A stretch of 13,122 nucleotides of DNA, from assembly GCA_031287505.1 (NCBI GenBank), contig JAITSW010000032.1, positions 1-13,122 on the forward strand, given 5' to 3'. Made by a program: the position numbers and the translations under genes. Shown piece by piece: positions 2,944-13,122 of this stretch. This DNA comes from Propionibacteriaceae bacterium (lineage in GTDB: Bacteria > Actinomycetota > Actinomycetes > Propionibacteriales > Propionibacteriaceae). The notes beneath the pieces were generated by a model, which saw only the letters and a list, made by a program, of their open reading frames with translations, searched no databases and had not been told where the DNA came from. Positions within the stretch are counted from its first letter, which is position 1. Every line of letters starts with the position of its first letter.

Positions 2944-3588
2944 TTACGCCCCGAGCAAAATAGCGGGGATGACGTGGACTTTATCTGGCCTAGTGTAAGC
3001 ATAAGGACCGGGTGTGATAATGATTTTCGTGACGTTATAGGTGGCGAATGCTTCAGCGAACCAATTCAGATGCCTGACATCTGAGGTATCAACAATGGGA
3101 TTGAGCTTGACTTCTACAGCGATGACATCTCTGCCCCGCGCAATTACGAAATCCACTTCGCGTTTGCCCTCTTTCAACCGCAGATGGCCAAGTCTCGCAT
3201 CGTTAACTGCTGCGTACGTGTGCAAACTCTGCACCACTAACGCTTCAAAGAACCTTCCCAGTAGAGTGCTTTGCTGTGGACCGAGTGGATCAGGAGTACT
3301 TCCCCGCAAGAGATTGTCCGCAGAAAGATCTAATAATCGGGCAGCCAAGGCTGGATCGGCCAGAAAGTGCTTGGGGGATCTCGTCAGAGTTGGGAGTGAA
3401 CTACCTACTGGAAGCCAAGGATCAACCTCGTCGGTGAGCCAGGCTCCTGCAAGTGCGTCACGATAGACCAAGGTTAGATCCTTCGATGGCTTGTCTGGCT
3501 GTCCAGCAGTGGCGGCGTTAAGAATCTGGGTGTAGTTCGCTGTAGCATATCCGTCGTTTCGCCACCGAGAAATCCGTCGTTTGGACAC
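2944..3588 (-). pseudogene. AAA_14/DUF4143 ATPase, N-terminal half lost
   Basis: A 214-residue frame from a GTG at 3588 to TAA at 2944. From about residue 13 on (YATANYTQILNAATAG) it matches the C-terminal half of the ATPase at 11943-13122. Shared landmarks are KPxK, YRDxL, SPKHxLADPA, the nuclease-like KREVDF (E144, D146) with VEVK (E159, K161), and RHLNW. By alignment with that gene the break corresponds to its residue 217 or so, so the P-loop and Walker B are absent and it cannot be a working ATPase. The first 13 or so codons, including the GTG, are translated 23-bp repeat sequence rather than ATPase. The PD-(D/E)XK-like residues survive, so an orphan C-terminal domain protein cannot be excluded, but no Shine-Dalgarno is evident. 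Most likely a decayed gene with an internal deletion, or one cut by a repeat-bearing element. Confidence 0.85.
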
Positions 3589-3610
3589 CGAGTTATCCGT
3601 CGTTTGGACA
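3549..3610 (-). repeat. 23-bp tandem repeat array, 2 full and 1 partial unit
   Basis: Read on the minus strand, units start at 3610, 3587 and 3564. The first two share the core TGTCCAAACGACGGAT followed by 7 bases ending CTCGG. The third, TGGCGAAACGACGGAT, has two changes and runs straight into the ATPase remnant. The period equals that of the array at 11875-11939 in front of another DUF4143 ATPase, although the sequences differ. Short repeats beginning with TG also recall the multi-repeat ends of IS21-type elements; no transposase is present here. The outer edge overlaps a perfect palindrome, GACACTAGTGTC (3607-3618). Confidence 0.9.
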
Positions 3611-3637
3611 CTAGTGTCACCCGATACACCCCGTCAA

Positions 3638-3667
3638 AACGTTATTCGTAACGTTATTTGGAACGTT
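3638..3667. repeat. AACGTT repeat, three copies at 12-base period
   Basis: AACGTT occurs at 3638-3643, 3650-3655 and 3662-3667. The first two copies are extended by ATT. The hexamer is itself palindromic and the copies sit about one helical turn apart, which would suit a cooperatively binding protein. It lies between the MarR gene's stop and the 23-bp array; its function is unknown. Confidence 0.6.
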
Positions 3668-3679
3668 GGGATCTGGTTC

Positions 3680-4120
3680 TCACTCTGGTGTCAGTGTTTG
3701 AAGCAGTGCTGTCAGGATGTTTTTGTCTGCTCCAAGAGGCCCAAAGAATGCATCGTCGACATCTTCGACTGCCAATATTGCTTGATTTACTTTTGATAGG
3801 CCTTGGGGTGTGATTACGACGCTTCTGGCTCGACCGTCAAAAGGATGGGCACGCCGCTCCACCCATTCCAGGGTTTCCAACGTGCGAAGTACCTGCGACG
3901 TCATCATGACATCTGCTCTGATGTAGGTGGCAAGGGCGCGTTGAGTGAGTGGTTCGTCTGTGGGAAGATGCGCTAACGCGGCCAATAACACGAACTGCAT
4001 ATGCGTTAAGCCGAAGGGCTCTAGGGCTGCCCGTTGAGCTGCCTGCCAGCGGTTGGTTGCCCGCCACAGCGCAAGCCCGGTCGATTCCTCTTCGTGTGGG
4101 TAGCGGGTGGCCAGACTCAT
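3680..4120 (-). CDS. MarR family transcriptional regulator
   Basis: 146 residues from the ATG at 4120 (MSLATRYPHEEE). A dimeric winged-helix DNA-binding repressor is expected. The helix-turn-helix and wing span about residues 58-105 (LTQRALATYI, then VMMTSQVLRTLETLEWVER and the wing DGRARSVVITPQG), the classic MarR pattern. The start is chosen because the ATG overlaps the stop of the upstream SRPBCC gene in ATGA and has AGGAG upstream. A longer frame to 4213 would add 31 residues that translate the SRPBCC coding region. Co-transcribed and probably translationally coupled with that gene. It likely represses the operon through the palindrome at 4547-4566. The ligand is not deducible. Confidence 0.92.
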   Translation of the reverse strand: MSLATRYPHEEESTGLALWRATNRWQAAQRAALEPFGLTHMQFVLLAALAHLPTDEPLTQRALATYIRADVMMTSQVLRTLETLEWVERRAHPFDGRARSVVITPQGLSKVNQAILAVEDVDDAFFGPLGADKNILTALLQTLTPE

Positions 4121-4542
4121 ATCGTTTGGCTCTCTCCTTGTGCCACGAGAGTGTCTAAACCTTCTTGGGCGGAAGCCGCAAGCCCTGGCCCGATAATACG
4201 CCGCCATAACCATCCCAGCGGGCCAGCTACTTCCACGGTGACCGCCAGGTTGGTGATCCCGGCATTGGACTCGACAACGTGCCGAAAGGTCACGCGGGCT
4301 CCAGGCATGTTCGACACATTCGTGAATTCGCGTTCCGGGTCGAACACAGTGATCTCAAACGATGTCTTTGGGCCGTTTTTGGGTTTGAGGCTCCCCGTAA
4401 CCCCCACTGCAGGATGTCCGTTCAGAGAAGCTGACTCACAGGTCTGATCCCAAGTCGGCCAAGAAGCCACATCTGCCCACCGTTCGACAAACCAGTTCGG
4501 ACGAAGAGTTGAAGTAGCTGTGGCCCGGGTTATCTCACTCAT
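4117..4542 (-). CDS. SRPBCC family protein (START/polyketide cyclase-like fold)
   Basis: 141 residues from the ATG at 4542 (MSEITRATATSTLRPNWFVERWADVASWPTWD). The opening, in which a residue pair such as VERWADV is followed by WPTWD, and the later PEREFTNVSNMPGARVTFRHVVE are typical of SRPBCC small-ligand-binding or lipid-transfer-like proteins. No membrane segment or signal peptide is seen. Substrate and reaction are unknown. The frame extends 18 codons further upstream to 4596, but that stretch is the promoter/operator region. The ATG at 4542 lies where transcription should start, so a leaderless message is likely. It forms an operon with the MarR regulator (ATGA overlap), a pairing common in actinobacteria. 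Confidence 0.85.
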   Translation of the reverse strand: MSEITRATATSTLRPNWFVERWADVASWPTWDQTCESASLNGHPAVGVTGSLKPKNGPKTSFEITVFDPEREFTNVSNMPGARVTFRHVVESNAGITNLAVTVEVAGPLGWLWRRIIGPGLAASAQEGLDTLVAQGESQTI

Positions 4543-4546
4543 AAAT

Positions 4547-4578
4547 ATAGTATGCGCGCTTACTATTAATAGAGTCAA
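4547..4578 (-). promoter_or_regulatory. Promoter and MarR-type operator of the SRPBCC-marR operon
   Basis: Bases 4547-4566 form a 20-bp near-perfect palindrome (arms ATAGTA and TACTAT around a GCGCGC core, one mismatched pair). On the minus strand TTGACT (4578-4573) is a good -35. A -10-like CATACT/TACTAT lies inside the palindrome, with a spacer of 18-20 bases. Transcription would begin at or next to the ATG at 4542. The palindrome over the -10 is the expected position for a MarR repressor; binding by this operon's own MarR is inferred. Confidence 0.75.
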
Positions 4579-4656
4579 ATCGTTCCCCATAGACAACAGG
4601 ATTGTTGAGCCGGTGTATTTCGGTGTTTGGGCTGATCAAAAAGTGCTGGCAGATTC

Positions 4657-5892
4657 CTACACCTCTAGCAACCACTCCAAAACATTGAGCTGTTGGATTC
4701 CCTCGTGGGAAATTGGCGGAGCCGTGTCTAGTGTTAAAAGCACGCGTCGGTTATAGTCTCGGATGGCCTGCAAGGGGGCAAGCTCACGCTGAAGTGTTTT
4801 GTCGTCTCGTACTGTTGTGGAGACTTGGTAGTAAGTAGTTGCGTCATTGCCATTAGCGACAAAGTCAACTTCCTTAGCATTGATGCGGCCAACATGAACC
4901 TCATGGTTGCGGCGCAGCAATTCCAGATAGACGACATTCTCTAAGATTTGACCTTCGTCTGTACGGGCTGACCCGAGCAGCATGCGTCTGAGAGCCGGAT
5001 CCACGAGGTAATACTTGTCTGGTGAACTGAGAAGCCGAGAGCCCGAAAGATCTAGTGGACGTGCCTGGTAGAACACATAGGCGTCCGTCAATCCTTTGAG
5101 GTAACTCTCTACGGTGTGTCTGCTGATTTTCGTGCCTGCCGTAGTGAGGGTGTCACTGATGCGTTTCACCGAGGTCAGGTTTCCAACATTTGAAGCAAGG
5201 AAATCGACCACTCGTCCCAAAGTGGCAGTGCTGGCCACTTTTTGAGCGGAGGCAACGTCCTGGAAAAGGACAGTGCTGAGGATTCCCCGTAAGTAGGTGT
5301 CAATCATGGGCAGGTTGCCGCCGAGTTGCAGGGTTCCCGGGAATGATCCGTTAGTGATGTAATCCCGGTATAGCTCTTCACGGGTGGGTGAAAACTCTGG
5401 CTTGCCGTCCATTGCGGAAACCCCAACTCTCCCCGATACATATTCGCTAAACGACAGGGGGAGCATGGGCAACTCGACATACCGCCCGGAAAGCAAAGTC
5501 GCGAGTTCCCCCGAGAGCAGATGGGAGGAGGAACCGGTGAGGTAAAGATCGATATTTTTTTTCAGGCGCAATCCACTAACAAGTTTCTGGAATTCATTCA
5601 CCTGTTGGATTTCATCAACGAACACATAGTTCATCGCATCTGGGATAAGTCGAGACGAAACGTCGTTGTAGAACAACCTCCAATCGTCCACATATTTGTC
5701 GTTATCAGGGTCTTCGAGATTAACGCTGTGGATGTTGGACGCGGCCACCCCATCGCGAAGCAGTTGATCAGCGAAAACCTCCATAATCGTAGATTTTCCG
5801 CATCTCCGAACTCCCGTTATGACCTTGATTACATCTCTGTCTCGCCAGTTAGTGAGCCATGCCAAGTACTTTGGACGATCGACAAGAGTCAC
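4657..5892 (-). CDS. AAA_14/DUF4143 ATPase, intact
   Basis: 411 residues from a GTG at 5892. Walker A GVRRCGKST (residues 27-35), Walker B YVFVDEIQ (89-96) and sensor-like LTGSSSHLLSGE (118-129) form the AAA_14 domain. The C-terminal DUF4143 part contains YYLVDPALRRMLLG, ENVVYLELLRR and the nuclease-like EVDFV (341-345). At the position where relatives carry ExK it has YQVS (about 355-358), so the PD-(D/E)XK centre looks incomplete. The GTG is preferred because AGGAG sits 7 bases before it. The TTG at 5913 lies inside a palindrome at the predicted transcript start and has no such site. Members are predicted soluble P-loop ATPases whose biological role is not established. It belongs to a different subgroup from the other two ATPase loci here. 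The promoter is flanked by two identical palindromes. Confidence 0.93.
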   Translation of the reverse strand: MTLVDRPKYLAWLTNWRDRDVIKVITGVRRCGKSTIMEVFADQLLRDGVAASNIHSVNLEDPDNDKYVDDWRLFYNDVSSRLIPDAMNYVFVDEIQQVNEFQKLVSGLRLKKNIDLYLTGSSSHLLSGELATLLSGRYVELPMLPLSFSEYVSGRVGVSAMDGKPEFSPTREELYRDYITNGSFPGTLQLGGNLPMIDTYLRGILSTVLFQDVASAQKVASTATLGRVVDFLASNVGNLTSVKRISDTLTTAGTKISRHTVESYLKGLTDAYVFYQARPLDLSGSRLLSSPDKYYLVDPALRRMLLGSARTDEGQILENVVYLELLRRNHEVHVGRINAKEVDFVANGNDATTYYQVSTTVRDDKTLQRELAPLQAIRDYNRRVLLTLDTAPPISHEGIQQLNVLEWLLEV

Positions 5893-5898
5893 GCTATA

Positions 5899-5904
5899 TC
5901 TCCT
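5899..5904 (-). promoter_or_regulatory. Ribosome binding site that fixes the GTG start of the ATPase
   Basis: AGGAGA on the minus strand lies 6-7 bases upstream of GTG 5892. This near-consensus site favours the GTG over the upstream TTG at 5913. Confidence 0.8.
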
Positions 5905-5907
5905 AGG

Positions 5908-5963
5908 TGGCAACGTATTGCCAATACTACTTGATATCTTTTACACATGGCAACGTATTGCCA
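5908..5963 (-). promoter_or_regulatory. Promoter bracketed by two identical 16-bp palindromes
   Basis: TGGCAACGTATTGCCA occurs at 5908-5923 and again at 5948-5963, exactly 40 bases apart; the distal copy extends to 18 bp (5947-5964). Each has arms TGGCAA/TTGCCA around a 4-base centre. On the minus strand the distal copy supplies a -35 (TTGCCA, 5953-5948). TAGTAT (5929-5924) is a candidate -10 with an 18-base spacer. The proximal copy covers the predicted transcript start. This is a typical double-operator repression layout. The regulator is not in the window as far as can be told. Confidence 0.8.
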
Positions 5964-6020
5964 TGCAAAAGTGACATATCGCTGACGGGAATTGTTTTGG
6001 TTTGAGGTTGGGGCCGGGAG

Positions 6021-6869
6021 TTAGACAGTTCGGGCTTGAAGAATCTTCTCAATGAGAACGGCAACGCCGTCTTCTTTGTTCGAGGCGGTAATGCCATCTG
6101 CGGCAGCCTTTGTCTGAGCTGCGGCATCGGCCATGGCTGCTCCGTAAGCCGCCCATTGGATCATGTTGATGTCGTTGCGGGCATCACCGACAGTGACGAC
6201 TCCTTCGCGGGGAATCTTCAGGGCTTTGCAAAGCTTTGCGATACCGGTGGACTTATCGACTCCGTGGGCGGCGATCTCAACGAAGGGCGCTCCGGACGTT
6301 GTCGCCGTGTAGCCGTCGATATCCGATTTTTCCAACGCCTCGAAAAGTTCATCTGAAGTGACCTGCGGATGGCGCGCGGTGAATTTAACGGCCGTCTTCG
6401 ACATGATCTCGGCGATCTCGACGATTTGGAGCGAGAAGTCGGGAGGATAGTTGTCTTCTTTCATGGCGAACTCGTAGTAGTCCTGCTCGACCAACATCGT
6501 CGCTCCGGCATCTTGGGATGATCCGAACGTGACTCCTGGGCAGATGTCGGTGAGATAGTCGACAATCTTTGCGATCACCTGCGCCTCTAGGTAGGTGGCG
6601 AAAAGGACATCATTCGTCTTAAGGTCGTACCCGACGGCTCCATTCGAGGCAATGGCGTAACGCACCTCGATATCGCGCAAAGCGTCTGGGAAGTAGGAAA
6701 CTGCTCTGCCAGTAGCTGCCACTACTTGGATGCCAGCCGCGTGTGCAGCGCTAACAGCGGACTTCACCCGTGGCGAAAAAGTAGAGTGCCCGTAGAGCAT
6801 GGTGCCATCAAGATCGCTGGCAATAAGCTGAACCCTATTAGCCAGCTCCGGCGAGATTTCGAGATTCAC
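6021..6869 (-). CDS. Cof-type HAD-superfamily hydrolase
   Basis: 282 residues from a GTG at 6869. All HAD phosphatase motifs are present: motif I DLDGTM (nucleophile D19, acid/base D21), motif II ATGR (52-55), the motif III lysine in GVDKSTGI (K206), and motif IV VGDARND (227-233). The large C2-type cap between motifs II and III marks the Cof/YbjI-like class, Mg-dependent phosphatases acting on sugar phosphates, FMN or similar small phosphates. The actual substrate cannot be read. The GTG overlaps the stop of the TfoX-like gene (GTGA), so it is translationally coupled and is the last gene of the dnaX operon. No clear terminator follows it. Confidence 0.94.
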   Translation of the reverse strand: MNLEISPELANRVQLIASDLDGTMLYGHSTFSPRVKSAVSAAHAAGIQVVAATGRAVSYFPDALRDIEVRYAIASNGAVGYDLKTNDVLFATYLEAQVIAKIVDYLTDICPGVTFGSSQDAGATMLVEQDYYEFAMKEDNYPPDFSLQIVEIAEIMSKTAVKFTARHPQVTSDELFEALEKSDIDGYTATTSGAPFVEIAAHGVDKSTGIAKLCKALKIPREGVVTVGDARNDINMIQWAAYGAAMADAAAQTKAAADGITASNKEDGVAVLIEKILQARTV

Positions 6870-7192
6870 TTTTTTGCCGCCTTTTTTCTTGGCTTGGGGA
6901 CGTCGGTGATTGGCTCCAACGCGCCAACGACGGCTTGGGCAATTTCTGAGTCGTCTATGGGAAGAACATAGTGTTCTTTGGCACCCTCATATGGGAAGCC
7001 GGTTTCAGCGTCGGGAAGTAACTGCGCCACTTGCGGGAGCATCTTTACGAAAACCGTGTTGTCGCAAATCAACAGGATTGGCTTGTCATTGACATAGACC
7101 AGGTATTCGCCGAACATTTTGCGATAGCGCAACTCCCAAGGACCCTGCACTTGGTCGATGACGAACAAGACGAAATCCTCACCGGTGGCCAT
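6866..7192 (-). CDS. TfoX N-terminal-domain family protein
   Basis: 108 residues. The pattern [27 protein letters not shown], followed by [13 protein letters not shown], is the TfoX/Sxy N-terminal domain. The family includes competence regulators in gammaproteobacteria, but stand-alone N-terminal-domain proteins like this are widespread and mostly uncharacterised, so a competence role should not be assumed. It ends in a lysine-rich tail ([10 protein letters not shown]), possibly nucleic-acid-binding. It overlaps the 3' end of recR by 14 bases and its own stop overlaps the GTG of the HAD gene, placing it firmly inside the dnaX-recR operon. Confidence 0.85.
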
Positions 7193-7793
7193 CGCTCACC
7201 ACTCTCCTTCCGGCAAAAGCCCTACCGAGGGTGACCTCGTCGGCGTATTCCAGATCGCCGCCAACAGGCAGGCCACTGGCCAGCCGCGAGACAGTGACAC
7301 CCATTGGGCCGATTAGCCGCGACAGATAGGTGGCGGTCGCCTCGCCCTCGAGATTTGGATCGGTGGCCAAAATGACTTCGGTAACAGTGTCGTCCGCCAG
7401 CCGCTGGCAGAGCTCTCGGATGTGCAGATCTTCCGGCCCGATGCCGGCGATCGGGCTAATCGCCCCGCCGAGCACGTGGTACACGCCCCGGAACTCGTGG
7501 GTTCGTTCGATGGCGGCCACATCTTTGGATTCCCCAACGACGCAAATTGCGCTGTGGTCGCGACGCGCATCGGCGCAAATTCGGCAGATGTCGTCGGCGC
7601 TAATCAGGAAACAGCTCGAACAGAAATGAACCTTTTGGCTGACTTCAATCAACGAGTTTGCCAAGGACGCGACCTCTTGCGGGTCGGTATGGAGGATATG
7701 GAAGGCGATGCGCTGGGCACTGCGCGGCCCCACTCCGGGCAGCCTTCCCAACTCGTCAATCAGATTTTGTATCGGCCCTTCAAACATTCTCAC
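7179..7793 (-). CDS. recR: Recombination mediator protein RecR
   Basis: 204 residues, the usual length. RecR works with RecF/RecO to load RecA on gapped DNA. Helix-hairpin-helix [11 protein letters not shown] (18-28), a four-cysteine zinc finger (C58, C61, C70, C73), and a Toprim domain beginning [14 protein letters not shown] (83-96) with [12 protein letters not shown] are all present, ending in the conserved [20 protein letters not shown]. The start is GTG at 7793, overlapping the dnaX stop as GTGA. An ATG two codons in (7787) gives the more usual MFEG opening and is equally possible. It is directly downstream of dnaX, the standard arrangement in many bacteria. Confidence 0.98.
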
Positions 7794-10117
7794 GCCTGCC
7801 CATCGTCGGCGATTAGCTCGCCGCCCAATTCAGCGACGATGAGTTCTTCTGGGTCAATAGAGTCGGTGCTGTCAAGGGTGAGATCGTCAGGGCTGGGAGT
7901 GTCGTATTCAGCTGGGCTGGGTTGCTTGGCGGCTTCTTTGGCGAGTTGTGCGCCAGTAGGGTGGCCGACAGGCCGTTTCGACGCCGGCGAAGACTTCGCA
8001 GAAGCCGCTAGAACATCGGGCGGCTCGGTGGCTGAAGCCGGTGGGGGTGAGGACGTCGGTGGGGATGAGGGTGCCGGCACCGGTGGGGATGAGGACGCCG
8101 GCACCGGTGGAATCTGCGTTGGGGGAACTGGTGCGGGCTCTGAAGCTGCCTGGGGAATATCCGCTTTTTGGGCTTGCCCAAACGCGGCTGCCCTGGGCAA
8201 GACGGTAGTGGCTTCGTCCAAACCGCCAACCGTTACCGCATTCACCGAGATCTTGACGCGCAAAGTCGCCAGCAGAGCTTCTTCGAGTACTTGGACATGG
8301 TCGGCTCCAAAAGCCTTACGCGCCTCGGGTTTGATCCCCAGGGTGAGAACGTTGTTAGTTATGTCAACCACATGGGAGTTCTGGCTCACCAGAATCCAAG
8401 TAACCTTGCGACGCTCTTTTACCGCCTCGAGAATGTCTGGCCAATGTCTACGCACATCGGCTGTGGCAAGCGCGCTGAGCGGTATGCCTTGGTTACCCAG
8501 CCCGGCTTTTGGCGTGTTGGTAGTTGGCGCCGGTTTCGCGGCCACAGGCTCAACCGCAGCGGGAGCATCCGGTGGCGGGAAGAGCGGGCGTTCATCACTT
8601 TGAGCCGGGGGGGTAGACGCGACCGGGGGGGCAGACGCGACCGGGGGGGCAGACGCGACCGGGGGGGCAGACGCGACCGGGGGCGGGGAAAGCCGAGATT
8701 CGTCATTTTGGTACTGTGAAGCAGGCAGAGCGGTGAGGTCGCGGGCACCGCGACCCGGAATCTCAGCCGCCACCGGCTGGCCGTCATTCAAAGCCACCCC
8801 CTGCGCAAGCTGACGCTCAACTTTCGCCAGCCGGGCCGCCAATCCACGTTCGCCGGCATCAGCCGAGGGCAGCAAAACCCGCGAACACATAAGCTCTAGC
8901 TGCAACCTTGGAGCGGTGGTGCCCCGCATTTGCTGCAACCCGTCGGCGGTGATTTCGGCGGCGCGCGTCAACTCGGCTGGCCTGAGCGCCGCAGCCTGCG
9001 AGTGCAACCGCTCGGCTTGATCGGCCGGGACGTCGATCAAGCCATTGTCGACTGCCTGGGGGACAGCCGAAACCAAGATCAGATCTCGCAAGCGCCGCAG
9101 CAGGTCTTCCGCAAACCGCCGCGGATCAAGACCAGACTCAATCACCTTGTCGATACACTCGAAAACGCTTTTGGCATCACCGGCGGCAAAAGCGTCCACA
9201 ATCTCGTCCAACAAGGAATCTGGGGTATAACCGAGCAGGCTCACCGCCTGGGCATAGCTGATACCCGACGTATCGGCACCGCCAAGCAGCTGGTCGAGCA
9301 CCGACAAGGCATCACGCACCGAGCCGGCGCCGGCCCGCACTACCAGCGGCAGCACCAGCGGCTCGACCTGCATCCCTTCGGCTTCGCACACTTTAGCCAG
9401 GTAGGCGCTCAAGATCTTCGGCGGCACCAGGCGGAACGGATAGTGGTGGGTGCGGGAGCGAATCGTCCCGATCACTTTGTCTGGCTCGGTGGTGGCGAAA
9501 ATGAACTTCACATGGGGCGGCGGCTCTTCCACTACCTTCAGCAACGCGTTGAAACCCTCTTTGGTGACCATATGCGCTTCGTCAATGATGTAGATCTTGT
9601 AGCGGCTCTGCACCGGCGCGAAAAAGACGCGTTCGCGCAAATCGCGGGCATCGTTGACACCGCCATTGCTGGCCGCGTCCATCTCAATCACATCGATACT
9701 GCCCGGCCCGCCGGTGGCAAGCTCTCGGCAGGACCGGCATTCCCCGCAGGGGATAGGGGTCGGGCCTAGCTCGCAGTTGAGCGCCCGCGCCAGAATCCGA
9801 GCGGAAGAGGTTTTGCCACAGCCGCGGGGGCCGGAGAAAAGATAGGCATGATTGACGCGATTATTGGCCAAGGCCCGCTGCAAGGGCTCGGTGACCTGCT
9901 CTTGACCGATAATCTCAGCAAAGGTGTCGGGACGGTAGCGCCGATACAGCGCCAACAGCGGCTCTGCATCGGTTGAAGAATTAGGCGAAGCGGGTGCCTG
10001 GACAGCGTCGAAAAGACCCTGCGCAGGATCGTCCCACTCATCTCGAGGGTCAAGAGAATCTGCAATACCCAAGTCTTCTTCGTCCACAAGCTGAATCTTA
10101 CGGGGTGCGGGTGACAT
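7790..10117 (-). CDS. dnaX: DNA polymerase III subunit gamma/tau
   Basis: 775 residues; the clamp-loader ATPase of the replicative polymerase. About 53 acidic, low-complexity residues precede the usual opening [12 protein letters not shown]. Then come Walker [10 protein letters not shown] (96-104), zinc cysteines C115, C124, C127 and C130, Walker B IIDEAH (177-182), the sensor [11 protein letters not shown] and SRTHHYPF (arginine-finger position R222). Domain III is followed by a proline/alanine-rich linker containing PPVASA repeats, a tau-like segment ([31 protein letters not shown]) and a second proline-rich stretch with an acidic tail. The ATG at 10117 has only a weak AGGG upstream, and no internal ATG lies between it and the conserved core. 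It heads the operon with recR. No A-rich slippery heptamer like that of E. coli dnaX was seen. Confidence 0.97.
8607..8678. repeat. 18-bp tandem repeat (x4) with G7/C7 runs inside dnaX
   Basis: Four units of GGGGGGG followed by an 11-base AGACGCGACC-type segment start at 8607, 8625, 8643 and 8661; the first differs by one base (TAGACG for CAGACG). They encode the PPVASA repeats of the DnaX linker. Unit length is a multiple of three, so gain or loss of units keeps frame, but each C7 run in the message is a potential slippage point. Confidence 0.95.
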
Positions 10118-10210
10118 TTTCCCTAGCCGGACGAGGAGTTGTAACCCATGGGCTCAATGAAGTGGGAAACTCCGCCGCCGCATGTCCACCCCCGGCACCT
10201 TCCATATCAG

Positions 10211-10253
10211 AAAAAAATGATGCGCCAGAGACGGAAAGGGACTCTGGCGCATC
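10211..10253 (-). terminator. Rho-independent terminator of the GH2 gene
   Basis: A perfect 12-bp inverted repeat (GATGCGCCAGAG at 10219-10230, CTCTGGCGCATC at 10242-10253) with an 11-base loop is followed, in minus-strand direction, by seven T residues (10217-10211). The stem overlaps the GH2 stop codon. It insulates dnaX from upstream transcription. Confidence 0.93.
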
Positions 10254-11874
10254 ACCGGCGTTCTACTTTGATGAACGGTGATTGCCCCCGAAGTGCGGTG
10301 TTGTCACCAGGAGCAGGTTCAACAGTGGCAAACTTGGTACCGTCATCGGTAAACACCGTGCCGTTAGCCGCAGTTTGGGCACTGAGGACAAGATACAGAT
10401 CGTCAGCGGACTTCGGAACGGTGAAGGTGATCTCGTGGTCTTTGTCACTTCCACGTGGGATGAAAAGATCTTTTGAGCCAGATGCCACGATGTCACCAGT
10501 TGCAGATCCGGAGCGCACTGCCCAATTCAACGTCACATTATCGGTATTGAGTAGATCGTTGAATACTGTAAGAGTTCGAGTCACTGAGGCACCGCGCTCA
10601 AGGGCAACTGGAACAGCCGGCCAAACCCCTGCGGAGTTGGAGCGCTTGTTGGCATCCCAATAGGCGTTATCGGAAACCAATAACGGAGAGAAGGCCTTTT
10701 GTATCCGTTGCACCGTTGGATGGCTCCAAGGATCGGGAAGGTTGTCTTCGCCGTATAAGGGCTTGAGATTGCCTTCAATCGTCATATCTGTCGATCTCAC
10801 ACCTGGCACTAAGCTTGCCCAAGCAGAGAGCAACGTGTATGGCCTGATGTCAGCCGCATCATTTACCCGCATACGCTGGGTGCTAGTTGCGAACTGCATG
10901 AACCCTCTGGGGGTGTTGTCGGTGTTCCAAATATGCTCGCCAGAGCCATGGGGCTTTCCCGGGAGTACGGCTTCAGGGCAAGTTGACTCAGTGAAACGAT
11001 CCGGGTTAGACCAGCTCACATCCCAGTAATGGCAATAGACGGTGTAGTTGTCATAGTCAAGATCGGGCGAGTTTCCATCCGTGCTGATCGGACGGGTGTC
11101 GTCTAGAGCCATGACTGCTTTGTATAGCTCGCGGTCGAAACCGATGCTGTAACCCGGGGCGGGGAATGGCGACTGGGTGCCAGTAGTTGGCTCATTCGCC
11201 TGAGACCAACGCAATACGGAAGCGTGGTTGCGGTCGCGAAGCACCAGGTCTTGGACATGCTTGACCATGTTGTCTCTACCAGAGAACAGGCTTTCCCTTC
11301 CGTTCGAGCCGCGGATAGCGGACTCGTCCATAAGGATCATTCCCATTTCGTCGGCAACATCGAGCATGTACGGGCTTGCCGGCTCTTGGTGGATGCGCAC
11401 CGAGTTGTAGTTTAGGCGCTGATAGTTGTCAATAACCTTTTCCCAGCCCGGATTCGAAGCACTCGGCCGAAGGAAACCGGGAAGCGTGTCGAACGCATCG
11501 CCACGACCGTAGTTGTCGATATTGTCATAGTCGGCACCCTGGGGAGAATCGCCGCGGAAGTTGATCGGAACGCCGTTGAGTTCAAATCCGTCACCGACCT
11601 GCTCTATCTCGCGGAACCCAAACCTAACGTGTGACGTTGATGGTTCGCTTCCGACAACGGTCGCGGTCACATCTAGGTTGTGAAGCTGCGCCCGATATCC
11701 CTCAACATAGGGAATGTTGGGCCACCAAAGCGAGTTCGGAACGATCCAACTGACCGGGCCCACGGTAACCTTCTTAGTCTGGCCTGCTGGCACAGTGATC
11801 CTCTTGGCGAGAATCATCGGGTACTTCGCCGTATTGCCTGACGCAGTGGATAGGGAGCCGGTGAGGTTAACGCT
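10252..11874 (-). pseudogene. Glycoside hydrolase family 2 protein, 5' end lost
   Basis: The first available start is ATG 11817 (521 residues), but clearly coding sequence continues in frame upstream (VNLTGSLSTASGNTAKYP) to 11874, where it meets the 23-bp array; a TAG lies just beyond the array. What remains is part of the immunoglobulin-like domain (PGQTKKVTVGPV, LWWPNIPYVEGYRAQLH, VRFGFRE), the TIM barrel and a C-terminal beta domain. In ATG numbering the acid/base is probably E209 in RWSQANEP and the nucleophile probably E294 in SGEHIW. The sugar-binding N-terminal domain and any signal peptide are missing, perhaps 300 residues or more judged from typical GH2 size. Substrate is uncertain (exo-beta-glycosidase class). 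It is probably inactive or unexported. The catalytic residues are intact, suggesting recent truncation. Confidence 0.85.
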
Positions 11875-11939
11875 CTGCGATCTGTATGATAGAAATCCTG
11901 CGAATTGTATGATAGAAATCCTGCGATCTGTATGATAGA
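11875..11939 (+). repeat. 23-bp tandem repeat array (almost 3 units) upstream of ATPase
   Basis: Units start at 11875, 11898 and 11921, each CTGCGA, 2 or so variable bases, then TGTATGATAGA and AATC (AATC absent in the last). The array begins where GH2 coding stops and ends four bases before the ATPase ATG. Each unit carries TATGAT, a good -10 hexamer. The period matches the array at 3549-3610. Confidence 0.92.
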
Positions 11940-11943
11940 TCTA
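11931..11943 (+). promoter_or_regulatory. Candidate leaderless promoter in the last repeat unit
   Basis: TATGAT at 11931-11936 is followed by AGATCT and then the ATG at 11943, so transcription should begin at the start codon itself. No Shine-Dalgarno is visible. The two earlier units offer further TATGAT boxes at 11885-11890 and 11908-11913. No clear -35 at standard spacing. Confidence 0.5.
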
Positions 11944-13122
11944 TGGAGTACTCCCCGCGAGTTGTCGACGCTGAGCTAGATCGCCTGTTGGCAGGTCTAC
12001 CCGCAGTGGCAGTTGACGGTGCCAAGGGAGTGGGAAAAACCGCGACTGCCGCCCGCCGGATTACGGATGAGATACGCCTAGACCGTAAGCGCATCCGACA
12101 AAATGTTGAAGCTGATCCAGAGATGATTTTGACGCGTAAGCGGCCACTCTTGATCGACGAATGGCATTTGGCACCTGAACTTTGGGACGTCGTTCGCCGA
12201 GCCGTCGATGATGACCGAAGCCCCAATCAGTTCCTTTTGACAGGTTCTGCGCTCCCCCCAAAAGATGCCCGCATTCATTCTGGCTCTGGTCGAATAATCC
12301 GAATGATAATGAGACCAATGATTCTGCCTGAGCGGGGCATAACTGAGCCATCCGTGTCCTTTGCCGATCTCTTAAGCGGTGGCAAACCGAGCCTTAGCGG
12401 CACAACGGACTTCAACTTGGTCGATTACACTCGGGAGATCATTGCGTCGGGATTTCCTGGCATCCGTCGCGACCCGCAAGACCTTCGACCGTTGACTATG
12501 GCGTCTTATATCGATGAGATGCTGGATCGCGATATTCCCGAGATTGGTGTTTCCGTGCGTAGGCCGCAAGCTTTAAAAGCGTGGCTGAGCGCATATGCCG
12601 CTGCGACAGCCACCACAACCTCCTACCAAGAGATCCTGAACTCCGCCACCCCAGGTGATGCTGGCAAACCTGCCCGTTCCACAGCGGAGGCATATCGTGA
12701 ATTGCTCCAACGGATGTGGATTCTCGATCCGCTGCCTGCCTGGATTCCCGCCTTCAATCCTCTCAAACGCCTTGCCCAGTCCCCTAAACACCACTTGGCT
12801 GACCCGGCGATTGCGGCCAGCCTTCTAGGAGCTACTGAAGAGTCGTTGCTCTTGCCGCTTGACGAAGTTGTGAATGCCAAGCGAGAAGGAACCCTATTGG
12901 CGGCTCTGTTCGAATCCTTAGCGGTATTGACGATCCGCGTCTTGGCACAGCCCCTGCAAGCAAAGACCTCGCATCTACGTACCCGAAACGGCGACCGGGA
13001 GATCGACATTATTGTGGAGCGCCCCGACCACAAAGTGCTGGCAATCGAAGTCAAGTTATCTGCAACTCCCGGTCTTTCCGATGCTAAGCACCTCAATTGG
13101 CTGGAAACTGAACTCAACAACA
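11943..13122 (+). CDS. AAA_14/DUF4143 ATPase, 3' end beyond window
   Basis: The frame is open from ATG 11943 to the window end (393 codons). Walker A GAKGVGKT (26-33), Walker B LLIDEW (69-74) and sensor-like FLLTGS (97-102) form the ATPase domain. The DUF4143 half contains AYAAATATTTSYQEIL (217-232), SPKHHLADPA and a complete PD-(D/E)XK-like centre, REIDII (E353, D355) and IEVK (E369, K371), then KHLNW. Perhaps a few tens of residues are missing at the C-terminus. It is closely similar in layout to the truncated copy at 2944-3588. Family members are widespread, often present in several copies, and lack an established role. It lies directly behind the 23-bp array and divergent from the broken GH2 gene, so it probably arrived with the array. 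Confidence 0.92.
   Translation, partial: MEYSPRVVDAELDRLLAGLPAVAVDGAKGVGKTATAARRITDEIRLDRKRIRQNVEADPEMILTRKRPLLIDEWHLAPELWDVVRRAVDDDRSPNQFLLTGSALPPKDARIHSGSGRIIRMIMRPMILPERGITEPSVSFADLLSGGKPSLSGTTDFNLVDYTREIIASGFPGIRRDPQDLRPLTMASYIDEMLDRDIPEIGVSVRRPQALKAWLSAYAAATATTTSYQEILNSATPGDAGKPARSTAEAYRELLQRMWILDPLPAWIPAFNPLKRLAQSPKHHLADPAIAASLLGATEESLLLPLDEVVNAKREGTLLAALFESLAVLTIRVLAQPLQAKTSHLRTRNGDREIDIIVERPDHKVLAIEVKLSATPGLSDAKHLNWLETELNN

Follow-up and report, generated by a model that had tools for sequence, protein, structure and literature searches.

Operator-like repeat arrays beside AAA_14-DUF4143 ATPase-nuclease genes: a probable compact mobile unit whose repeats are likely read by its own product

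The DNA stretch analyzed here (the window, 13,122 nucleotides) is the entire contig JAITSW010000032.1 (C236) from the draft genome of a Propionibacteriaceae bacterium (GCA_031287505.1; 1.64 Mb, 267 contigs, 71% complete). It contains three loci for a predicted ATPase with AAA_14 and DUF4143 domains, or for what is left of it, and each locus is preceded by its own set of repeats. In this report, we describe these repeats, their distribution in the wider gene family, and the evidence that repeat and gene form a single unit, in which the repeats probably serve as the operator of the gene.

Copy 3 (11943..13122, plus strand) is an ATPase-nuclease gene that is classified by PADLOC as PDC-S01 and whose 3' end is incomplete because position 13122 is the end of the contig. 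The array of copy 3 (11875-11943, plus strand) is composed of three 23-bp direct repeats at 11875-11897, 11898-11920, and 11921-11942, and it abuts the start codon. The repeat unit was found 3 times in the window and 0 times in 200 shuffles. Within the last repeat is the -10-like hexamer TATGAT (11931..11936, plus strand), located at -12 to -7 from the ATG, from which a leaderless promoter is predicted. Copy 1 (2944..3588, minus strand) is a deleted remnant that has retained its array. The AAA part is gone, and the C-terminal part of DUF4143 (profile positions 29-159) is fused to three 23-bp repeats (3548-3611, minus strand) with cores at 3595-3610, 3572-3587, and 3549-3564; the first part of the annotated open reading frame (ORF) 2944-3588 lies within this array. 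Copy 2 (4657 to about 5892-5913, minus strand) was found by Pfam to carry AAA_14 and DUF4143 and belongs to a different clade. Its upstream region holds two identical, operator-like 16-mer palindromes spaced 40 bp apart and assigned to neither strand. The first, TGGCAACGTATTGCCA (5908-5923), lies immediately downstream of a predicted -10 element, TAGTAT (5929-5924, minus strand), and the second (5948-5963) overlaps the predicted -35 element (TTGCCA, 5953-5948). The promoter scan at copy 2 matched the consensus at the level expected by chance (2 found, 1.9 expected). The palindrome occurs twice in the window, compared with a shuffle mean of 0.10, and 2 of 200 shuffles were equally high.

The positions of the three loci and the presence of a distinct upstream repeat at each, as described in an earlier note on this DNA, were confirmed. 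The statement that all three share the same architecture was found to be correct for copies 2 and 3 and incorrect for copy 1, which has only a partial DUF4143. The repeats were also said to differ between loci, and in the 1.64-Mb source assembly the full-strength matches to the copy-1 unit, the copy-3 unit, and the copy-2 palindrome are indeed restricted to their own loci; scattered matches with 2-3 mismatches are few. There are nine DUF4143 matches in the source genome, and the repeat pattern extends beyond the three loci of the window. At the DUF4143 loci in contigs C59, C65, C32, and C225, about three repeats with a spacing of about 23 bp were seen by eye before the start, and their sequences are all different. 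The repeats were scored by script for C59, C32, and C65, of which C32 scored weakly.

The PDC-S01 models match copy 2 (E = 3e-139), copy 3 (E = 1e-65), and, partially, copy 1 (E = 5e-24), as well as all 56 aligned relatives. The best PADLOC model is PDLC04787 for copy 2 and PDLC04790 for copy 3, and Pfam detected AAA_14 in copies 2 and 3 and not in copy 1. Copy 2 sits on a long branch in the protein tree, to which a long-branch warning applies. Copy 3 retains the Walker A, Walker B, and D...E-x-K residues. Among these, G26, G31, K32, D72, E73, G101, and S102 (Walker A, Walker B, and sensor) are invariant in the 56 sequences, and the catalytic PD-(D/E)XK residues are D355, E369, and K371, of which the aspartate and lysine are invariant and the glutamate nearly so in the same alignment. 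The E-x-K motif has been lost from copy 2, where it is replaced (EVD...QVS). The fold of DUF4143 is that of the PD-(D/E)XK nucleases. The structural model of copy 3 has a predicted local distance difference test (pLDDT) score of 89.9 and folds like 2qen (residues 1-296) and 2fna (residues 1-295), with an AAA core followed by a winged helix. On the basis of this model, copy 3 is predicted to be a STAND-like ATPase. No sensor repeats (TPR, WD40, or LRR) were detected, since Pfam identifies only AAA_14 and DUF4143 in the 393 residues of copy 3, the last residues of which are cut off. No family match was obtained with NCBIfam, and a sequence search of the PDB with L001 gave nothing credible. The published account describes PDC-S01 as an ATPase fused to a PD-(D/E)XK domain and as the fourth most common defence system across prokaryotes, with most PDCs awaiting validation (PMC12988326). 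A role of PDC-S01-type genes in phage defence is suspected.

The wider occurrence of the arrays was determined with a family set assembled from the loci of the best-scoring matches (30 listed, 80 stretches) and the source genome; the set is not random and covers part of the listed matches. The 140 profile matches were reduced by 18 that were partial and by 9 duplicates, and the partial C65 was restored as case 114. Two of the 114 genes were excluded because their reading frame, taken from the assigned start codon, contained stops. L095, with an inferred start outside its contig and an artefactual array, was left out of the 113 and is still among the 77 arrays used in the correlation, same-genome, and tree analyses. 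The domain itself is present in 91 of 147 genomes of the same bacterial family, with 23 matches in some of them. The three-copy self-match within 120 bp upstream of the genes peaks at a period of 23 (mean of 0.521 versus 0.363 in 135 control genes) and at 22, and the only other signal is a weak one at 32-33. At the array-strength threshold, three to four direct repeats with a 22/23-bp period were found just upstream of 76 of the 113 family genes and 6 of the 135 controls, and 4 of these 6 positive controls overlap a unit's own array. The other period pairs gave 0-2 of 114, except for 32/33 with 10. A second set, composed of 80 loci from many bacterial phyla with L187 left out (no Walker motif), yielded a 22/23 array at 32 of 79 loci versus 7 of 152 control genes (26 versus 1 at a stricter cut), compared with 0-5 of 79 for other period pairs and an average of 2.55 for block-shuffled cases. 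The comparison with control genes proposed in the earlier note thus came out clearly, with upstream repeats far commoner in both sets. Strong palindromes (score of at least 10) precede 18 of the 113 family genes and 4 of the 135 controls, and nearly always belong to genes that have no array. Six genes outside the 22/23 clades (L136, L105, L130, L109, L090, and L107) carry direct repeats of 32-33 bp, partly alongside palindromes.

In 65 of 76 genes, no more than 35 bp separate the end of the array from the start codon. The promoter analysis took in 108 of the 114 genes. A TAnnnT motif at -12/-13 from the start codon was found in 67 of these 108 and in 11 of 135 controls, and Shine-Dalgarno-like sequences are not in excess (14 of 108 versus 15 of 135). 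Transcription in the sampled family therefore most likely starts with the first codon and gives a leaderless message, and the array is most likely located on or just upstream of the promoter. When one copy was held out (61 of 77 arrays), the agreement between copies was 0.71-0.77 in a 14-bp core and 0.43-0.49 in the spacer. This pattern resembles that of binding sites under selection, separated by unconstrained spacers, rather than that of recent tandem duplications. Because 22/23 bp is about two turns of the helix, the repeats would all be presented on one face of the DNA. For most of the clades sampled within the family, the operator is probably made up of 3-4 direct repeats, and for others it is probably a palindrome. 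The operator-like sites adjoin the gene's own promoter, as is expected of a self-regulated unit.

The similarity of the repeats was found to track the identity of the proteins, with a Mantel rho of 0.40 (Spearman, 2926 pairs); the highest value among 500 permutations was 0.12. A quick tree was built from 110 of 112 proteins and carries long-branch warnings. The operator type requires 24 changes on it versus 47.4 when shuffled, and none of 200 shuffles gave so low a number. Genes of the 22, 23, and palindrome types form clusters on this tree, and the four 32/33 genes do not. Repeat and clade thus go together, as the earlier note had asked, with the exception of the 32/33 group, and the ATPase clade accounts for the repeats better than the host genome does. 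Recognition of all arrays by a single host regulator, or by a small number of them, would fit two observations: the cores show a weak family resemblance, and at equal protein identity the arrays from the same genome are slightly more alike (excess of 0.013, p = 0.03). However, the similarity between arrays rises from 0.13 to 0.35 with protein identity, and a single host regulator is therefore disfavoured. The arrays within one genome differ widely and track the ATPase clade, and each of the three window repeats is full-strength at its own locus only. We consider control by host regulators to be quite improbable, and reading of the repeats by the ATPase's own product fits best.

The explanation that we favour, and regard as probable, is that of a compact mobile STAND-like ATPase-nuclease gene under its own operator, which its own product would read. 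It draws on features that the sequences show: the arrays and their position, the core and spacer pattern, the following of the clade, the restriction of the three window repeats to their own loci within the genome, and the gain or loss of array together with gene in two lineages, described below. Each unit would consist of one gene, in which a STAND-like ATPase (AAA plus winged helix) is fused to a PD-(D/E)XK nuclease, together with a private operator beside the promoter. Several copies of the gene's own product would occupy neighbouring repeats and thereby repress transcription. Once the protein is titrated away or activated, for example by phage DNA or phage proteins, the gene would be derepressed and the ATPase-nuclease would then act. 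Separate operators would allow many units to coexist in one genome without mutual silencing, and some genomes have 23 domain matches. A stronger variant, which we put forward as a tentative possibility, is that the arrays are private docking tracks: protomers aligned on their own 22/23-bp repeats would silence the gene and hold the protein off, an invader that draws the protomers away would free both promoter and nuclease, and the unit would move with its own track. If this variant is true, then a genome can stack many orthogonal sentinels.

The array might instead be a self-mark for the nuclease, with the protein kept inactive or assembled on its own array and transcriptional control arising as a by-product. 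The regular 22/23-bp spacing fits a head-to-tail assembly, the catalytic aspartate and lysine are invariant with the glutamate nearly so, and STAND proteins are described in published abstracts as multimerising on activation. Against this, the array sits beside the promoter, a position that simple control would explain, palindromes replace the array in some clades, and copy 2 is without E-x-K yet has an operator-like pair. We judge the self-mark to be rather unlikely.

A number of points weigh against self-regulation by the gene product. A clear 22/23 array is missing in 37 of the 113 family genes and 47 of the 79 cross-phylum genes, and among the genes without an array some have palindromes and some have nothing visible. 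The leaderless -10 element is weaker in the cross-phylum set (22 of 79 versus 7 of 152, and 8 of 32 among the genes with arrays), and the start codons were assigned by rule. The small same-genome excess noted above points in the same direction. No credible site for the DNA-reading residues emerged from partial correlation by 12-column windows or from mutual information with phased repeats; the best windows fall in the AAA core and those of the winged helix are among the lowest, and the mutual-information test used 59 of the 77 arrays with an effective n of 16.

The evidence for movement of the unit begins at copy 3. The minus-strand gene for a glycoside hydrolase of family 2 (GH2; 10252..11874) is interrupted at the copy-3 array. 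The part homologous to P0002 (64% identity) begins with residue 4 of the query, some 10 bp away from the first repeat; approximately 270 N-terminal residues of the homologue are without a counterpart at this locus. The missing part was not found anywhere in the source assembly, and the GH2 relatives within the genus are distant ones only.

In Corynebacterium minutissimum (L140), the ATPase unit sits between two genes. In a search of 151 genomes with the L140 flanks, six genomes (L140's own included) were listed with both flanks close. The unit is present in a near relative (G252), 97-153 bp are found in its place in three relatives at about 80% identity (G199, G288, and G318), and both flanks are present 1.8 kb apart in G272. 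The L140 unit is framed by two GTTTCACGTGAAAC sites near 3868 and 5303, which we take to be parS-like, and the relatives without the unit keep similar sites.

In Agrobacterium, a 1.49-kb unit (96-99% identical) occupies five sites, of which four are on plasmids and the fifth is on a genome contig, and the flanks of about 1 kb are without similarity in any of the ten pairs. At four of these sites a GGTTCG-type sequence immediately precedes the left border. At the same four sites the right end is GTTCGATTCC or a close variant, the last bases of which vary by site. These border sequences resemble tRNA T-arms, and no intact tRNA was found in the loci scanned. The sequence GTTCGANTCC occurs near the unit ends at 1 of 191 loci, and the 15 tRNA genes in these 191 loci follow no clear rule of adjoining the units. 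As far as seen, the T-arm-like borders are a feature of the Agrobacterium lineage. A search with the joined flanks of the Agrobacterium locus L300 returned no plasmid record covering 80% of the query, and hence no clean empty site; the right flank alone is present, free of the unit, in L305 and L306. For L134, no empty site was found in its genus, and the only other genome with both flanks also holds the unit.

Array and gene are present or absent together in Corynebacterium and Agrobacterium, and therefore both travel together, moving as one piece in these two lineages. The mobile unit suggested in the earlier note is thus borne out to the extent that it is compact and was gained or lost whole in two lineages; self-mobility is not, since no annotated transposase was found in the shared block and a second array at the opposite end is lacking in 36 of the 38 units tested (of 77). 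The idea that units generally carry arrays at both ends was rejected on this count (2 of 38). In the two exceptions, L063 and L131, the ATPase gene is flanked on both sides by the same array in one orientation, so that recombination between the two could leave behind a solo array. The units of L115, L067, and L125 are bounded by long imperfect direct repeats, and the left copy of L067 resembles a gene's 3' end, as is seen at integration sites. Near-end direct repeats (score of at least 16) flank 13 of 174 units and 2 of 104 control genes (one-sided Fisher test, 0.04). This comparison rests on the control genes, a null of mismatched pairs being too lenient. The count falls to 11 of 172 (Fisher test, 0.07) without L063 and L131, in which the flanking repeats are the arrays, and it is 34 of 174 versus 15 of 104 at a score of at least 11. 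The excess is suggestive only.

The ends of Tn7 carry transposase-binding repeats, and the array could likewise be the left end of a mobile element, for use in excision or insertion, with the proximity to the promoter being secondary. In favour of this are the broken end of the GH2 gene at the copy-3 array, the unit missing as one piece in three Corynebacterium relatives, the five unrelated sites in Agrobacterium, and the excess of flanking direct repeats. However, that excess shrinks as described, and a second array is the exception. The block common to the Agrobacterium sites extends well beyond the array, which therefore is not the border there; it begins at T-arm-like sequences at four of the five sites. 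The promoter-side position is, moreover, what an operator requires. We regard a function as a mobile end as unlikely. Descent from plasmid iterons or centromere repeats was also considered. The period and copy number are iteron-like, and relatives were found on 365 plasmid records. The shared block has no replication or partition gene, however, several arrays are in contigs of megabase size (for example, G041:C1 of 5.68 Mb), and the arrays recur with each gene and adjoin its own promoter, which makes a plasmid origin of this kind extremely improbable. A search of viral contigs gave no confirmed relative of copy 3. An operator that travels with its gene remains our preferred account of the arrays.

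Other features of the window were noted. Between copies 1 and 2 (3680-4596) there is a gene for a MarR-type regulator adjoining a Polyketide_cyc2 gene. The dnaX gene contains 18- and 24-bp repeats at 8605-8694 and 8038-8110, which are likely a low-complexity tau linker. A sequence at 2510-2690, upstream of the minus-strand ORF 3-2537 (ileS-like, by eye), has what we take to be a T-box-like motif and is below the Rfam threshold; Rfam and tRNA scans of the window gave no matches. Clusters of AACGTT a few bases apart occur at 3638-3667 of the window and also in C59 (L020), C225 (L027), and C223 (L295). AACGTT pairs 4-20 bases apart were found in six contigs of the source assembly, three of them directly upstream of ATPase arrays, and a control pattern gave none.

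According to the published account, few candidate defence genes of prokaryotes are as abundant as those for AAA_14-DUF4143 proteins (PMC12988326). The operator-like array, found in two thirds of the family as sampled and in about two fifths of the cross-phylum set, is probably the means by which they are silenced. The arrays provide each protein with a DNA ligand that is immediately testable, suggest how many copies may share one genome, and aid the annotation of start codons and unit borders. Searches of the open-access literature listed no title or abstract describing these arrays, and no account of the trigger or mode of action of AAA_14-DUF4143 proteins was found.

The family itself is already known, and what is new here are the operator-like arrays and the mobile unit for PDC-S01-type genes. 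Copies 2 and 3 share the AAA_14 plus DUF4143 architecture of PDC-S01, and the published account, in its available text, is silent on repeats, promoters, and a mobile unit (PMC12988326). A similar situation is found with RptR, which represses the promoter of a phage-defence island through three direct repeats, two of them over the -10 box (PMC12255303). However, RptR is a separate repressor and its repeats are 9 bp long with a 6-bp palindrome (PMC12255303), whereas the arrays described here have cores of about 14 bp every 22/23 bp, are specific to each gene, and have no separate repressor gene in the unit. Among the STAND ATPases, which include CED-4, the plant NLRs, the archaeal 2qen and 2fna, and MalT as the transcription-factor case, the units here differ in having a PD-(D/E)XK nuclease and no sensor repeats. 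Iteron plasmid replicons have an initiator gene, and Pfam detected no plasmid Rep protein among the ten ORFs of the window. Tn7-like transposons have repeats at both ends, in contrast to the units here, of which 2 of 38 have a second array. With gene cassettes and tRNA-directed integrative elements (integrons, tycheposons), the 1.49-kb single-gene unit of Agrobacterium shares its place next to T-arm-like sequences at different sites, and it differs from them in that an integrase is absent from the unit.

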